Below, in pieces: positions 1 through 26,253 of a DNA stretch of 36,735 nucleotides. Source of the stretch: an uncultured Ectothiorhodospiraceae bacterium (lineage in GTDB: Bacteria; Pseudomonadota; Gammaproteobacteria; S012-40). A program made the translations under genes and the position numbers. The notes under the pieces were generated by a model that saw only the letters and a list, made by a program, of their open reading frames with translations, had not been told where the DNA came from and searched no databases. Location: positions 1-36,735 of the forward strand of contig CALZJE010000032.1 of NCBI GenBank assembly GCA_945787715.1, in the 5' to 3' direction. Every line of letters starts with the position of its first letter. Positions within the stretch are counted from its first letter, which is position 1.

Positions 1-2063
1 ATGAAAAAGAATTGTCCAGTTTCATGACCTGCATGTTTTATTGGTGCATATTCTGGTGTTTGAATATTCGATGAATTTGTCGATACATCTTTTGTGACTT
101 GTCGATACAAAGCATAGCCCTGAAGAATTGTATCGTTCTGTTTTAATGCTCTTAAAAATGCATTTGCGAAAATTGAGTGGTTTCCTTCGCCTTCATCAAA
201 TACCGGCTGTATGCCACCAGATGATAACACTGTTCTGGAACGACTTTTTGCCATGAGCTTAACCCATTTTTTCTGGATTTCAGGTGAGATATTATTATCG
301 ATACGAGGCACTGCTGTACGTGTCATTGTGCCTGAATAACAAGAATCTGCGACAACCATTACGTGGTTTGCGTTAATAGAGTTAAGCATATCAGTGACGG
401 CAACATTAGAGATCCAGTTTGCCGTATTGTCTGTCTCAGCGTCAATTGGTAACCAATAGCCTCTGTCATTGATTTTATCCAAATCACCGTGGCCAGCATA
501 GTAGACAAGTAAATTATCTTTCTTTGTGAGCTGTTGACGTAGTTGATGGAGTGCAGACAGGATTTCATATCGATCTACATTTATTAACAGTTTAGTCGTG
601 AAACCATATTTTTCCTTCAAAACACGAGCTGTCTCTTCCGCATCTGAGACGGCAGTTTTCAGATTAGGTAAATTTTGGTATTTGTTGTTGCCGATAACAA
701 GGGCATAGTACTGTCCTGCATCTATATCTGCGAGGTTGGTTTTTACGCGAGATTTACCAGGTACAGGTGCAATCGCGTTACCCGTAGGCGATGATATTGT
801 GAAATCCAGAATAGTTGATCTATTTCGCTTGTCTATCGCTTCTAACTTTACACTGACCAGGTTGCTGTTAATTTCTACAGGGATGCGGAAACTATTATCA
901 GGTCGTAAAAAAAGACGTTGGTTATTATATTTAAAGTTTTTTAACCCAGCTGGCGCACTAACTTTTCCATAAATGTCTTTTGATTTAACCGGGGAGCGTA
1001 ATAACACACTCGGTAACCCTCGTGTCAATGCGAGTGGGGGATCTAATATCTCAATACTAGGACCTGCTAATGCCAGTTGTTGCATTTCAACATTAGCGAT
1101 CTGCTTTTTATAGTTGTTAGTTTCTTTATTTAGCTTGGCGATAATAAGCCCTTGGGATTTTAAATCTTCTTCTTTCTCTTTCATTTGAGCAAATAATTTA
1201 TTAATAAGTGCTTGGACCTCTTTGGGAGCCATTTTTTGCTGGGATGATGATTTATCTTCAATTGTAGCTATAGATACACTTTGCTGATTGTTCTTTTTAC
1301 TGTCATCTAGGGCAGTTTTGAATTGTTTGATACGAGATTTTAGTTGAGTGATTTTGGATTGCGTTGAGTCCTGTTCATTTTGGACATTTTTAAGTTTTTG
1401 CTGTGAGTGGCGCAGTTGCTTTTTATATTTTTCAGCTTCCGCTTCGAGTTTTTGAACTTCCTCACGTAGCGATCCAAGTTCTTCGTTTTTCGCAGACAGC
1501 TCAACAGAAGATATATATTCTATGTCTTCCGGCAAACCAGAAGCTTTGCGGTACCAGTTCATTGCTTCAGAAATATTCTGCTCGACGCCCAAGCCTTTTT
1601 CATAGAGATAGCCTAAATTTATTTGAGCCCTTGAATAATTTTGCCTAGCAGCTTTTTTATACCAGAGAGCAGCGATCTCATAATCCGGCTGGATGCCCAT
1701 TCCTTTTTCGTAGATTTCTCCAACTTGAGTCTGTGCATTTGGATCTCCCGCCTGCGCTTGAGGTAGCCATATTTTTAAAGCGGTTGCATAATCTGCTCTA
1801 TCGAATGCGACATATTCTCCACCGCGGATTTCGCAATCTAGTGCGGATGTTTTGATGGGGCGGCGAGGGGTGATGTAATTCGCTGAGCGTCCCAAGCTTC
1901 GAACCTGACCTGGCAATAGGCAATCGATTATATAGATTTTATCGACATTATCGCGTGTAACATCTGCATTGGCATTTATTTGAATTTCGCTATCTTTGGT
2001 ACCTTTACCGGCACAACCAATCAGAAATAGAAAACAGACAATAAGGGAAAGCAACTTTTTCAT
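1..2063 (-). CDS. Caspase-like (peptidase C14) lipoprotein with SEL1 repeats, C-terminus off the window
   Basis: The reading frame is open from the ATG at 2063 to the left edge (687 codons visible, no stop). The N-terminus is a lipoprotein signal: MKKLL, a hydrophobic run, then lipobox LIGC near residue 18. Two SEL1-like repeats follow (about 105-175; motifs EIYEKGMGI and YLYEKGLGV), then a long charged coiled coil (about 185-330), an Ig-like segment (about 335-430) and a caspase fold from about 448 (YYALVIGNN). The catalytic dyad is visible: His525 in YYAGHGD and Cys575 in DSCYSG. The last visible residues, GQFFF, resemble the usual end of the family, so only a few residues are probably missing. 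It lies 175 bases downstream of the kinase gene on the same strand. A membrane-anchored protease exported to the periplasm is inferred; its substrate is unknown. Confidence 0.9.
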   Translation of the reverse strand, partial: MKKLLSLIVCFLFLIGCAGKGTKDSEIQINANADVTRDNVDKIYIIDCLLPGQVRSLGRSANYITPRRPIKTSALDCEIRGGEYVAFDRADYATALKIWLPQAQAGDPNAQTQVGEIYEKGMGIQPDYEIAALWYKKAARQNYSRAQINLGYLYEKGLGVEQNISEAMNWYRKASGLPEDIEYISSVELSAKNEELGSLREEVQKLEAEAEKYKKQLRHSQQKLKNVQNEQDSTQSKITQLKSRIKQFKTALDDSKKNNQQSVSIATIEDKSSSQQKMAPKEVQALINKLFAQMKEKEEDLKSQGLIIAKLNKETNNYKKQIANVEMQQLALAGPSIEILDPPLALTRGLPSVLLRSPVKSKDIYGKVSAPAGLKNFKYNNQRLFLRPDNSFRIPVEINSNLVSVKLEAIDKRNRSTILDFTISSPTGNAIAPVPGKSRVKTNLADIDAGQYYALVIGNNKYQNLPNLKTAVSDAEETARVLKEKYGFTTKLLINVDRYEILSALHQLRQQLTKKDNLLVYYAGHGDLDKINDRGYWLPIDAETDNTANWISNVAVTDMLNSINANHVMVVADSCYSGTMTRTAVPRIDNNISPEIQKKWVKLMAKSRSRTVLSSGGIQPVFDEGEGNHSIFANAFLRALKQNDTILQGYALYRQVTKDVSTNSSNIQTPEYAPIKHAGHETGQFFF

Positions 2064-2238
2064 ATGTATTTCTCTATAAAGCTTTTGACGACTAAAGTTA
2101 ATATCTAACATTCTGTGACATCTTAACATTATTTCCTATGACTTAATTCACAGGTGTCATGAAATCTGTATATGTCAGTAAATCTTCTGATAAAGTAATG
2201 ATAGAAAACATTTCAAGAGAGTGAAAGTGTCAATAGAG

Positions 2239-4023
2239 TTAGAAATCTCTTGTGTTTTCAATTTCTTCTTTGAGAGACAATAACGATTCATGCTCAGGAT
2301 CGACAAATAATCCCATGTTAATCATCTCTAGAGATTCGTTTTTATCACCGGATTTAAGTTTTGATTCCGCGAGAGTTTTATATTTGTTTACTATTCGTTT
2401 TTTACCTTCTATTGCTTCTTGATGTGCTGGATTAATCGCCAATATCTTTTCGTATTGGTCAAACGCACTATCGCCAGGAGGAGAGGCTAAATAACCCATA
2501 GTGAAGTAAAGTTCTGCAACTTCTAGATAGTTATCAATAGATTGTAGTTGCTCTGTAGTGAGTTTTTTGAGCGGGATAACTGGCTTTTGTTTGTAAATGG
2601 TCCAGAAATACACACTGAGAGCAAGGGCAATGATCATTGCTGTCGTACTGGCAATCAGTAAAGGTGAACGTTTTTTAGGTGCAATGCCATTGTAGAATTC
2701 TTCTACGGTTGCAATTCGTTCTTCACGGGAGAAGGCCAGGGAGTCTTCTAGTGTTTGCCATTGTCGACGGTTAAGCTCGTTAATTTTTTTTGGTTTAAGC
2801 CCTTCGTTTCGAGCGTCGATAGCCGACTTTTCTTTAAATGGATGAATACCTGTTAATAATTTATAAGTAATACAACCTAGCGCGTAGATATCGTCACTGG
2901 GGTCAGGCGTTTTCCGTTCGAACATCTCACAGCTGGCGTATGCTGGGGTTAGTGCGCCCAGAGAGCCAGCATCAAATTCGTCAGCCTCAGGTAATTGTTT
3001 TGCACGAGCGATCCCAAAATCCAGGACTTTTACGATATTGTCTTTGGTGAGGTAGACATTTTCAGGTTTGAAATCCGAATGTATGATGTCTTTTGAATGG
3101 GCGTATTGAAGCGCTTTACACATGCTATCAATAAAGGGTAGGGCGTCTTTGAGGGGCATACCCAGTTTGTTTTTCAGAATTGTCTCATCAAGCGATTCGC
3201 CATCAAGACACTCCATTGTCATGTAGATAGTATCTTGATCTCTATCGAAATCATAAACGGTAATGATGTTAGGGTGCGCTAGATTTTGTATTTTTTGAGA
3301 TTCGCGCTCAAGGGTAAGGAATGACTGAGGGTGTTGTTTAAAAACATCACCAAGTAGTTTTATGGCCACATAGGGGTAAGTGTTTTTCGCCTCTTGTTTC
3401 CTGAGATCCAATGCTTTAAACACGACACTCATTCCACCTGAGCCAATTTTACGTTGTAAGATAAAACGGTCTTTAATAATACTACCGGGTTTTAGAATAA
3501 GTGGTTTTTTTCTGGGTGGTGTTGTTGCGAAAGAATAGGGTTGTGTCACATTCTCGATTGTCGCATTTGTAACAACCGTTTCAGCGGTAGTATCAAACGG
3601 CTGGGGTTGGCCGGCAATAACTGTCTCTGCCAAATGGTTGTTACCCGACATTTTTTGATCTGCAAGCACGGTTTCTTGCTGTGTCGCTGGTCGTACAACC
3701 GTTTTATCTTCAACCGCTGTATGTAAGACGGTTTGATCATCTCCTGAAATTCGTGTTTTATCTTGCTGTTCATGCGCTAAATTAATTCTAGTGCTATCGT
3801 CGATTATTGTATCTTGCGGTGGGATGTTTACAAGGCTGCTAAAAAAAAGATCATAGTGAGCCTCAGATATCGCATTTCTAGCGTGTAGTTGATAAAGACC
3901 TTCTATAAGATCAGCTTCTTGAAGTTTTTCTTCTTTTAAAAGTTGTTTGACGTCTGAGAGTGCTTGGTCAATATCAACTTGATGAGTTTGAAGATTAGCA
4001 ATGATTTCATTCAAACGGTTCAT
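2239..4023 (-). CDS. Membrane-anchored Ser/Thr protein kinase with Thr-Val motif ladder and TPR-like tail
   Basis: This is a Hanks-type kinase. From the ATG at 4023: helical N-terminus (1-65), a Thr-rich linker (70-165), kinase domain (about 187-445), one membrane helix (about 454-474) and a TPR-like tail outside the cytosol (about 490-594). The Gly-rich loop is IGSGGMSV (193-200), the ATP lysine is in AIK (222), the catalytic loop is HSDFKPEN (315-322) and the metal site is DFG (335-337). The loop reads HSD rather than HRD, so it is a non-RD kinase. The linker repeats acidic-x-Thr motifs (QTVL, KTVV, ETVL, ETVI, ETVV), likely autophosphorylation sites. A TTG at 4041 would add six residues; neither start has a strong Shine-Dalgarno, so the ATG is preferred. 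The caspase-like lipoprotein follows on the same strand. Confidence 0.92.
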   Translation of the reverse strand: MNRLNEIIANLQTHQVDIDQALSDVKQLLKEEKLQEADLIEGLYQLHARNAISEAHYDLFFSSLVNIPPQDTIIDDSTRINLAHEQQDKTRISGDDQTVLHTAVEDKTVVRPATQQETVLADQKMSGNNHLAETVIAGQPQPFDTTAETVVTNATIENVTQPYSFATTPPRKKPLILKPGSIIKDRFILQRKIGSGGMSVVFKALDLRKQEAKNTYPYVAIKLLGDVFKQHPQSFLTLERESQKIQNLAHPNIITVYDFDRDQDTIYMTMECLDGESLDETILKNKLGMPLKDALPFIDSMCKALQYAHSKDIIHSDFKPENVYLTKDNIVKVLDFGIARAKQLPEADEFDAGSLGALTPAYASCEMFERKTPDPSDDIYALGCITYKLLTGIHPFKEKSAIDARNEGLKPKKINELNRRQWQTLEDSLAFSREERIATVEEFYNGIAPKKRSPLLIASTTAMIIALALSVYFWTIYKQKPVIPLKKLTTEQLQSIDNYLEVAELYFTMGYLASPPGDSAFDQYEKILAINPAHQEAIEGKKRIVNKYKTLAESKLKSGDKNESLEMINMGLFVDPEHESLLSLKEEIENTRDF

Positions 4024-4164
4024 TGTTATGGTCCGAGGCAAATTACATCGTAGAGTTTGGTTTATACAAAATTAAAAACAATAAATGGCACTGTAATTCT
4101 AGAAAAACACGTTCTATTTCCACGTCCAACTGCATTTTCTAGGATAATGTCGACTTATGTGATG

Positions 4165-6852: not shown

Positions 6853-7830
6853 ATGGATGAGTCAATAGATCTTAGCTCAAAGAAAACAATGATTGACGCT
6901 GAAGAAGGTGTTTTATCGGCGCTATTAAAAGATTCTATGCGTATGGCTTCATATGCTGTTGAGGTTGGGCGATTGCCAGAGCAGGTTAAATTTGCGGAGC
7001 TATACCGGCTTTGGGATTTAAAAATTGAACAATCGAAGAGTTTAACAGCTGACGATATCAACAAACTTGAAAGTTATTACCGCCTTCTTGAGGAAGAACT
7101 GGAGCCGGTAAATGCGGTAAGTTTATATGCTACAGATGCCAGGAGAGATTCTAGTAACTCAAAAAATTACATGAATACCGAAGCAGGGAAACATGCACGT
7201 CGCGTATGGCGAATGGCATTTTCTATACTAGCGTTGATAATGGGGATCAATCTCTTTCAATATGTATTTGATATGCTATCCAGTGACTGGGCTGTTAAGA
7301 TGCCAGAGGGTTTTGTCTATATCACTATTCTCTATTGGCTATCTGCCGGTATTACACCATTCGCCTATGGTGCATTTGGTGCCTGTGTTCGACTGTTACG
7401 TGTAACCGAAAGACGATTGAGAGATCGATCATTTGATCCTCGCAGAATCCCTGAACATAATAATAGACTAGTACTTGGAACATTAAGTGGTGGTGTTATT
7501 GTTCTTTTATATAGTAGTGGAGGGGTAGGTGAAACTGATGTGATGCTTACAGAAGCTGCGCTTGGTTTTTTGGCTGGATATAGTATCGATCTATTATTTT
7601 CGATTATCGACCGAATGGTTAATGCGCTTTCTCTTGAAAAAACGAATACAGCACCAATAAAGAAAAAGTCTAGTGCTCGTAGCTTTGGCTTAGTTCAGCA
7701 AACTGATGTCGCAACAAAAAATAGGGAGAGTAAAGAAGAATTAAAAAAGTCGCAATCTGATGTTGCGCCGATAGCATCGGTTCAAGCGGATGATAACCCG
7801 CAAAAAACGACAATAACTAAAGTTAATTGA
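6853..7830 (+). CDS. Hypothetical multi-pass membrane protein
   Basis: I do not recognise a family for these 325 residues. The first 110 are soluble, acidic and mostly helical. Four hydrophobic segments follow: about 117-137, 148-175 (containing ITPFAYGAFGACVRLL), 210-230 and 235-260. The tail (about 262-325) is hydrophilic, rich in Lys, Ser and Gln, and probably disordered. There is no signal peptide. The ATG at 6853 is preceded by a GGGG run (6837-6840), a modest ribosome site. It stands alone between the MITE-like element and the convergent glutamate-synthase-like gene, so context gives no function. The reading frame is long and uninterrupted, so it is probably a real gene. Confidence 0.8.
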   Translation: MDESIDLSSKKTMIDAEEGVLSALLKDSMRMASYAVEVGRLPEQVKFAELYRLWDLKIEQSKSLTADDINKLESYYRLLEEELEPVNAVSLYATDARRDSSNSKNYMNTEAGKHARRVWRMAFSILALIMGINLFQYVFDMLSSDWAVKMPEGFVYITILYWLSAGITPFAYGAFGACVRLLRVTERRLRDRSFDPRRIPEHNNRLVLGTLSGGVIVLLYSSGGVGETDVMLTEAALGFLAGYSIDLLFSIIDRMVNALSLEKTNTAPIKKKSSARSFGLVQQTDVATKNRESKEELKKSQSDVAPIASVQADDNPQKTTITKVN

Positions 7831-14905: not shown

Positions 14906-15946
14906 TTAATTGATTAAAGTGGCGCCTTCTGTTTCTGGTAGCCGAGGAAGTGTCATCGGTGGGTAAATCCCTGTGAGTGTTTTTAGAAACGAAACAATAT
15001 CATCGACTTCTTGTTCATTTACGCCATAATTAAATTGCACTCTATCCATCACTCTGACTGCTTCATGTAAATTTTTTACCGCACCATTATGAAAATAAGG
15101 TGCCGTGTCTGCGATATTTCTTAAAGGCGGTACTCTCCAAAATAGTCGGTGTTCTTCATCTAATGTATGATGATATACACCTTGATCATCAAGGAAGTTA
15201 TATTTGCTTTCGTAATTACTACCTCGAATAGTGGGCATGAGTTCATAAAATGCATCTCCCATTTTAAGAGCAGGCCCCGGTGCAGGACCGGCAAAGTTGA
15301 CACCAAAATGACAACCTAGGCATCCCTTATTTTTAAATAGATTCAAACCACGTTTTTCTTTTTCGTTTAATGCAGATTTATTGCCTTTAATATATTGGTC
15401 GTAACGACTGTCATGCGCAATCAAGGTTCTTTCAAAAGCAGAGAGAGCCATTGCAATATTTTCGGTTGTTATTTTTTCATTAGGAAATGCTTTGCTGAAA
15501 GCAATGACATAACCTGGAATTGACTTTAAACGACTCTCCAAAAATGCTGAACTTCCCATATCCATAATCTTCGGATCAAACAAGTGTTCTAAAGCCTGGA
15601 CTTCAAGGCTCTCTGCTCGGGCATCCCAGAAATATGTGGAGAGATAAGCCACATTCCAAAGGCTAGGGGCTGATCGTTTTATTTTACGATCGGCCATGTT
15701 GAAAACAGCACCATCATCATCACCTCCTGCGGCGAGGTTGTGGCAAGTGTTACAGCTAACATCGCCTTTTAATGAGAGCCTTGGATCGAAATAGAGTTGC
15801 TTACCAAGTGTTATTTTTTCTTCTGTCTGTAGATTGTTGTCAGGAAATATTGGTTTATCGGGTAACGGTTGTAGATATTCAAACGCGTATACTGATTGCG
15901 AAATAATAATAAGTATAGACACTAACGTAATGAAGAAACTTCTCAT
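14906..15946 (-). CDS. Diheme cytochrome c peroxidase (CcpA/MauG family) with altered acid residue
   Basis: A periplasmic diheme peroxidase-family protein of 346 residues. A signal peptide (MRSFFITLVSILIIISQSVYA) is followed by two heme sites, CNTCH (65-69) and CLGCH (209-213). WDARAESLEVQA and APYFHNGAVKNLHEAVRVM carry the electron-transfer Trp and the likely distal Met. At the place where relatives have Glu-Met-Gly, this protein has Asp129-Met-Gly, so the catalytic acid is conservatively changed. It could be a peroxidase with altered activity or a MauG-like oxidase. A paralogue with the normal Glu lies at 25219. It converges with the DUF5658-like gene. Confidence 0.93.
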   Translation of the reverse strand: MRSFFITLVSILIIISQSVYAFEYLQPLPDKPIFPDNNLQTEEKITLGKQLYFDPRLSLKGDVSCNTCHNLAAGGDDDGAVFNMADRKIKRSAPSLWNVAYLSTYFWDARAESLEVQALEHLFDPKIMDMGSSAFLESRLKSIPGYVIAFSKAFPNEKITTENIAMALSAFERTLIAHDSRYDQYIKGNKSALNEKEKRGLNLFKNKGCLGCHFGVNFAGPAPGPALKMGDAFYELMPTIRGSNYESKYNFLDDQGVYHHTLDEEHRLFWRVPPLRNIADTAPYFHNGAVKNLHEAVRVMDRVQFNYGVNEQEVDDIVSFLKTLTGIYPPMTLPRLPETEGATLIN

Positions 15947-25218: not shown

Positions 25219-26253
25219 ATGAAAAAATTTATGTTATTTATAATGGCTACCATCTTGATATTTACATCAAGCTTAAGCCATGCGTTTGAAGCATTGCCTG
25301 CAACACCACCTATACCTGCAGACAATCCAATAAGCGCGGCAAAAATAGAATTGGGGAAACAGCTTTTTTTCGACCCCAGGCTTTCCGTTGATGGCACGAT
25401 TTCCTGTAATTCCTGCCATAATGTAATGTCAGGTGGTACCGATAACCGTGCAGTTTCAGTGGGGGTAGGCGGACAAAAAGGTGGCCGATCGGCTCCTACC
25501 GTTTGGAATGCTGCATTCTTATCTTCACAGTTTTGGGATGGCCGGGCAGCAACTCTGGAAGATCAGGCAAAAGGTCCTATCCTGGCACATGTGGAAATGG
25601 GAATGCCATCAGCAGACACAGCGGTAAAGCGCATTAAAAGCATTAACGGATATGTACAGTCATTTAAAGCAGTTTTTGGCGGGGATGATCCCGTTACATA
25701 TGATAATATCGCCAAAGCAATTGCAACCTATGAACGTACTCTGGTAACTCCAAATAGTCCTTTTGATCGCTATCAACGAGGGGATAAAAATGCAATGTCG
25801 GCTACAGCGATTCGCGGCATGAAAACCGTCAGCGATTTAGGTTGCACAAGTTGCCATAGTGGCGTTAACTTCGCTGGGCCGGATTTACCCATGGGGCAAG
25901 CCTTTTTACAAAAATTCCCGGTTTTTCCTGGCAGCGAATATGATAAAAAATATAAACTGATGGATGATTTAGGTCGCTATACAGTCACAAAAAAGGACAG
26001 TGATAAAAATATCTGGCGTGTCCCTACGTGGCGAAATGTTGTTTTAACTGCTCCTTATTTTCATAACGGTGCAGTTAAAACATTGGACGAAGCTATTCGC
26101 GTGATGGCAAAAACTCAGTTAAATAAAAATGTCACAAATGAGCAAGTAGCAGATATTTCAGCGTTCCTGAATAGTTTAACAGGAGAGTTTCCTGTTCAAA
26201 CTCTGCCACATTTGCCCAATTACTCCTTCGCAAGCATTGTGGATGATGAGTAA
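25219..26253 (+). CDS. Diheme cytochrome c peroxidase (CcpA/MauG family)
   Basis: A periplasmic diheme peroxidase of 344 residues that should reduce hydrogen peroxide with electrons from cytochrome c. A signal peptide ends SSLSHA (about residue 22). Heme sites are CNSCH (63-67) and CTSCH (209-213). FWDGRAATLEDQAKGP has the conserved Trp, and Glu126 in VEMGMP is the normal catalytic acid. The late segment APYFHNGAVKTLDEAIRVM carries the probable Met ligand. It is a close paralogue of the protein at 14906, with both heme sites at almost the same positions. The ATG at 25219 follows GAGG. It is monocistronic and flanked by gene remnants on both sides. Confidence 0.96.
   Translation: MKKFMLFIMATILIFTSSLSHAFEALPATPPIPADNPISAAKIELGKQLFFDPRLSVDGTISCNSCHNVMSGGTDNRAVSVGVGGQKGGRSAPTVWNAAFLSSQFWDGRAATLEDQAKGPILAHVEMGMPSADTAVKRIKSINGYVQSFKAVFGGDDPVTYDNIAKAIATYERTLVTPNSPFDRYQRGDKNAMSATAIRGMKTVSDLGCTSCHSGVNFAGPDLPMGQAFLQKFPVFPGSEYDKKYKLMDDLGRYTVTKKDSDKNIWRVPTWRNVVLTAPYFHNGAVKTLDEAIRVMAKTQLNKNVTNEQVADISAFLNSLTGEFPVQTLPHLPNYSFASIVDDE

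Follow-up and report, generated by a model that had tools for sequence, protein, structure and literature searches.

A kinase with a TPR-type tail and a caspase-Sel1 lipoprotein as a candidate signalling pair across the bacterial envelope

Introduction

PpkA kinases, which serve the threonine-phosphorylation pathway of type VI secretion systems (T6SS), receive their input from the periplasmic side, and their targets are FHA proteins of the cytosol (PMC6082577, PMC12607579). In Serratia marcescens, RtkS binds and stabilises the periplasmic domain of PpkA and activates the kinase from the periplasm (PMC6082577); TssW of Acidovorax citrulli binds the periplasmic domain of PpkA (PMC12607579); and in Pseudomonas aeruginosa TagR, together with TagQST, activates PpkA from the periplasm (PMC10482370). 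How such kinases sense events beyond the inner membrane has been worked out for only a few species. Here we analyse a stretch of 36,735 nt, hereafter the window, which is contig C32 (CALZJE010000032.1) of an uncultured Ectothiorhodospiraceae bacterium (assembly GCA_945787715.1), and in which the gene of a transmembrane Ser/Thr kinase is followed by that of a lipoprotein with Sel1 repeats and a caspase domain.

As for the lipoprotein, Sel1 repeats have been reported in 6% of prokaryotic metacaspases (PMC3501461), and most bacterial caspases have no assigned role. The pair itself is not described in the open-licence papers retrieved by our literature searches on the combination of caspase, kinase and T6SS or autotransporter. 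Our results suggest that it is a little-known signalling pair which transmits a signal across the envelope and may, in some species, deliver it to the T6SS. With moderate confidence we take it to be a trans-envelope, outside-in sensor module of the PpkA kind.

Results

The kinase gene (2239-4023, minus strand) encodes 594 residues (PF00069, E=3.2e-40; mean pLDDT of the AlphaFold model 80.6) and starts with an ATG at 4023, an upstream TTG at 4041 being a possible alternative. Its model (m5c6d2c60bd11) opens with a four-helix domain (residues 1-65; 3829-4023), whose helices mostly exceed a pLDDT of 90, and proceeds through a disordered linker (residues ~70-167, pLDDT <50) to the catalytic domain delimited by Pfam and the model (residues 181-450; 2674-3483). 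With a G-loop at residue 194, AIK at 220, HSDFKPEN at 315-322 (the HSD loop at 3073-3081) and DFG at 335, the kinase is, judged by its motifs, of the non-RD type yet catalytically complete. Model and sequence place a single transmembrane helix at residues ~454-477 (2593-2664), preceded by KKR in keeping with the positive-inside rule, and beyond it an all-helical, predicted periplasmic tail of TPR type (residues 490-592; 2248-2556). The layout is that of the PpkA pathway: a Hanks-type kinase domain, one transmembrane helix and a C-terminal domain predicted to lie on the periplasmic side. A Foldseek search with the kinase model returned PpkA (5hnv) at rank 48 among many kinases.

The lipoprotein gene, 175 nt downstream on the same strand with no terminator-like site seen on that strand in the gap, runs off the contig, leaving 687 residues inside the window (3-2063, minus strand; PF00656, E=3.3e-26; PF08238, E=5.9e-20). 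Its signal peptide (2013-2063) ends in the lipobox LIGC with Cys17 and carries Ala at position +2; a type II signal peptide free of Asp at +2 predicts an outer-membrane location. A lipobox was found in 66/83 homologues by a regular expression that misses some, none had Asp at +2, and homologues of the Arenimonas type have a plain signal peptide instead. The alignment and the model define a family-specific N-terminal domain (DCLLPGQVR...DCEIRGGEY, residues 45-90; 1794-1931), used below as marker A6, for which a Pfam search of that region gave no family match. Two Sel1 repeats (PF08238 and model, residues 92-175; 1539-1790), a long modelled coiled coil (helices 186-257 and 280-332; 1068-1508) and an all-beta domain whose fold is probably Ig-like (residues 336-424; 792-1058) lead to the caspase (C14) domain (3-713), recognised by Pfam, model and fold match, with His525 at 489-491 and Cys575 at 339-341. 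The models of kinase and lipoprotein were each built on alignments of 40-45 rows.

The nearest folds of the caspase domain in the PDB are MALT1 paracaspase, GSU0716 and metacaspases; this predicted C14 fold with its His/Cys dyad places the protein among the prokaryotic caspase homologues. His525 and Cys575 are invariant in the 45-row homologue alignment, and virtually every full-length homologue examined retains an intact dyad (by motif and by listed variants), which argues that catalysis is under selection. Two homologues (L216:9741-10796 and L217:9088-10212) retain the N-terminal domain, the two-repeat-type Sel1 module and the Ig-like region, lack the caspase domain and adjoin an autotransporter gene; the loss was probably a single event, and neither genome is among the matches for the tail kinase described below. 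Separate, short caspase genes of the window's genome and of relative G004 (L079:2-1527, L080:331-2003, L071:6216-7830) are each followed by the gene of a ~220-aa protein, predicted in L071 to be an outer-membrane beta-barrel.

The original prediction, made from the window's letters, had thus described the pair correctly: a transmembrane non-RD kinase with an HSD loop, encoded upstream of a lipoprotein on the same strand, and in the latter SEL1 repeats, a coiled coil and a His525/Cys575 dyad, with the residue numbering exact. It had also called the kinase tail TPR-like, and the tail profile indeed matches TPR proteins in the PDB; the tail and the Sel1/caspase protein, which it had supposed to meet in the periplasm, are both predicted to lie there and not in different compartments.

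The end of the window and the start of contig C49 have exactly 99 nt in common, an overlap expected of adjacent contigs in a k-mer assembly, from which we infer that the two join. C49 supplies the last four residues of the lipoprotein (IPKT) and its stop. Across this join the next open reading frame begins ~17 nt past the caspase stop and encodes a 386-aa autotransporter-domain protein, followed by a 1346-aa protein with Big_5 and fn3 domains. The autotransporter of relative G004 adjoins a protein of 1570 aa that has Big_5 domains and many RCC1 repeats (L071:12931-17643).

The adjacency of kinase and lipoprotein is not a matter of chance, given that such genes are few in the window's own genome (~6 Ser/Thr kinases, 5 C14 domains and ~5 autotransporters in 4.4 Mb) and that the pairing is conserved far beyond the species. 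Three relatives keep the adjacent order: L068, which belongs to the same genus, and, from the same family, L071 and L069/L070, the last with its kinase gene divided between two contigs. Scanning 84,980 species genomes yielded 313 relatives of the lipoprotein, of which the best 80 were taken as loci; 78 of them (all except L085 and L086) entered the count, for which six-frame translations were searched with profiles. Within 8 kb of the lipoprotein, 66/78 of these loci have a kinase and 47/78 an autotransporter beta-domain gene. A PP2C phosphatase gene is found in 22/78, and 11/78 have a T6SS core gene no more than 10 kb away; FHA genes, too, are neighbours in a minority. Because the 80 loci had been picked for similarity to the query, the count was redone on an evenly drawn class sample of 369 genomes, 26 of them positive for marker A6, in which 27 loci other than the window's own were counted by eye: 20 have the kinase, 19 the autotransporter and 15 an alpha/beta-hydrolase. 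Conserved adjacency across genomes, which the original prediction had named as its test, is therefore borne out in both sets. Gene order and orientation vary between loci while the linkage of kinase and lipoprotein persists. An alpha/beta-hydrolase lipoprotein was considered as a universal third partner and rejected, its gene being present in 51/78 loci and without a match in the window's own genome or in the three relatives of its family; a search for plasmid carriage at E 1e-40 found none.

The linkage does not follow one kinase gene by descent. In a FastTree phylogeny of 90 kinase domains the lipoprotein-linked kinases fall into several separate lineages, and therefore one inherited kinase gene does not explain it. 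What most of these lineages have in common is the TPR tail of ~120 aa. For 39 non-RD kinases at these loci, about 120 aa follow the transmembrane helix, and one tail motif (GRLxxPPGxNAxxxYxxVLxxDPxNxxAxxGL) is found at lipoprotein loci on kinases of both the HSD/HFD and the HRD type. In the class sample, tail matches above 110 bits occur in 13/369 genomes, all of them marker-positive (13/26 vs 0/343, p=3e-17), and four marker-positive genomes carry a strong-tail kinase that does not adjoin the lipoprotein (G086, G213, G216, G259; p=2e-5); both p-values overstate the evidence, because linked tails served to train the profile and the genomes share ancestry. The unlinked tail kinase adjoins PP2C in G086 and G213, and PP2C, TssK, TssL and TssM in G216. 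A protein from Planctomycetia (L148:1786-3483) is matched by two profiles, those for FHA and for the kinase tail, and is not a kinase by the kinase profile.

Several relatives carry the pair among T6SS genes together with PP2C and/or FHA (L071, L087, L090, L091, L122, L123, L125, L126, L141, L144), the T6SS proteins having been confirmed by Pfam for representatives. PP2C accompanies TssM/TssL in relatives such as L071, L087, L122 and L250, and FHA is encoded in L122, so that a T6SS cluster with pppA and fha is partly present in relatives and absent from the window locus. VipB is present in 13/26 marker-positive vs 58/343 other genomes (p=2.3e-4, uncorrected for genome size or kinship). In the kinase tree the window kinase falls into one non-RD clade with L067, the kinase of the T6SS cluster in its own genome, and by way of this clade groups with a T6SS-cluster PpkA; support is 0.97 at the clade that includes L101, order inside the L067/window clade is weakly supported, and the tree is built from sequences other than those of characterised PpkA. 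T6SS as an obligatory partner was rejected, half of the carriers being without VipB. What comes after the pair in Marinobacter (L105, L108, L110) is an oxidoreductase gene, then genes for a small membrane protein and for a fusion of an FHA domain with multihaem cytochrome domains, so an FHA partner is possible without T6SS genes in the locus. The full operon of L105 (9908-20733) comprises caspase lipoprotein, kinase, cNMP-binding/ferredoxin oxidoreductase, small membrane protein, FHA-multihaem cytochrome fusion and an HbpS-like protein.

Elsewhere in the window, two genes encode MauG-type di-haem cytochrome c peroxidases (14906-15946, minus strand; 25219-26253, plus strand), and for a 325-aa open reading frame (6853-7830, plus strand) no match to a Pfam family attains that family's cut-off.

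Discussion

In the model that we favour, the lipoprotein would sit in the outer membrane with its Sel1 repeats and coiled coil reaching into the periplasm, where it would sense a change at the cell surface or envelope, perhaps via the neighbouring autotransporter-barrel protein. It would pass the signal on to the kinase by binding to the TPR tail, or else by cutting something that lies beside that tail, whereupon the kinase would phosphorylate a cytosolic target, in some species an FHA protein driving T6SS assembly and elsewhere a different output. We infer the contact between lipoprotein and tail, the direction of flow, the use of the protease activity, the FHA target and the nature of the signal; that the lipoprotein acts upstream of the kinase is suggested by analogy. 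The original prediction had the signal run from a cytosolic kinase to a periplasmic protease, a direction for which we find no support. An outside-in flow is likelier, because the input of PpkA is periplasmic and its targets are cytosolic FHA proteins, and because some loci encode FHA, PP2C and T6SS genes.

Several observations weigh against this model. The window locus contains no T6SS genes, those of its own genome lying on other contigs, and no FHA gene stands next to the window pair; since half of the carriers, as scored by VipB, have no T6SS either, T6SS cannot be the general output. Linked kinases at L073, L135, L142, L208, L211 and L215 have no tail, and many other proteins show the tail fold with lower scores (95/369 genomes). 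The tail p-values, moreover, ignore genome relatedness, and some of the tails on which the profile was trained come from the same lineages.

Among the alternatives, the lipoprotein could be mainly a processing protease that trims or releases neighbouring surface proteins (the autotransporter and the large Ig/propeller proteins), with the kinase as a separate sensor under shared regulation. Clan CD peptidases are known to process surface proteins (PMC3482391), and an autotransporter gene is both frequent in the two sets of loci and the next reading frame after the window's caspase gene. However, linkage is more frequent for the kinase than for the autotransporter, and the lineage that lost its caspase domain, probably once, keeps the autotransporter and has no tail-kinase match; we thus regard this alternative as rather unlikely. 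That same lineage would fit a second possibility, namely that the lipoprotein acts as an outer-membrane anchor to position or stabilise the kinase, in the way that TssW and RtkS act on PpkA, its peptidase activity being secondary. The binding and stabilisation of the periplasmic domain of PpkA by RtkS (PMC6082577) and the binding modules of the lipoprotein (Sel1, coiled coil) are in its favour, but the near-universal dyad of the full-length homologues argues for selected catalysis, and we judge an anchor of this kind to be quite unlikely.

It is improbable that the kinase signals outward and activates the periplasmic protease in the service of a stress response or of programmed cell death, even though the two binding modules are predicted to meet in the periplasm and caspase homologues have been discussed in bacterial cell death (PMC3501461). 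The FHA and PP2C neighbours point to cytosolic targets, and the match to PADLOC caspase defence models is weak and partial (39 bits); the cell-death role of the original prediction finds no support. To our knowledge, no Hanks-type kinase of such a layout has been shown to signal outward across the membrane. A defence-system reading was likewise rejected, the match reaching only 39 bits over 160 aa and the protein being a predicted secreted lipoprotein. That the adjacency is accidental or a functionless relic of shared ancestry, in favour of which stands only the local gene order common to close relatives, is scarcely credible in view of the varying order and orientation with persistent linkage, the several kinase lineages and the unlinked copies that still co-occur.

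A bolder and more tentative reading, which we hold to be less likely than not, is that of a widespread, undescribed caspase-gated trans-envelope module, in which an outer-membrane caspase lipoprotein would control several kinase lineages through one shared TPR tail and one output could replace another (T6SS firing in some cases, redox proteins linked to FHA in Marinobacter). A tie between lipoprotein and kinase would give both proteins a testable job, and since Methylomonas, Marinobacter, Hahella and Arenimonas are cultured carriers, the pair is directly accessible to experiment.

Compared with described systems, the lipoprotein resembles the caspase-like releasing peptidases of polymorphic toxins in being a clan CD peptidase tied to secreted proteins; those, however, are mostly domains within the toxin polypeptide (PMC3482391), whereas here the peptidase is a separate lipoprotein and no toxin domain was found. 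It shares the C14 fold and the His/Cys dyad with the prokaryotic caspase homologues (orthocaspases, peptidase C14; PMC3501461) and is set apart from them by its predicted secretion as a lipoprotein and by an N-terminal domain specific to its family; that survey's section on operons does not mention the linkage to kinase and autotransporter seen here. A cytosolic caspase with a defence partner and a match to a curated model, as in caspase-based anti-phage or cell-death systems, is not what the locus encodes. The closest likeness is to PpkA with its envelope partners (TagQRST, RtkS, TssW): a one-pass Hanks-type kinase with its catalytic domain inside and a C-terminal domain predicted here to be periplasmic, a partner likewise predicted in the periplasm or outer membrane, some loci with PP2C and FHA genes close by, and a non-RD clade shared with the T6SS-cluster kinase of the same genome. 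Unlike in those systems, the partner is a caspase-Sel1 lipoprotein, the tail is a TPR domain of ~120 aa, and the module is also found without T6SS and next to autotransporter genes. The arrangement was originally put forward as new; a membrane kinase with an envelope partner is already known from PpkA, and it is the caspase lipoprotein as the partner that appears to be new.
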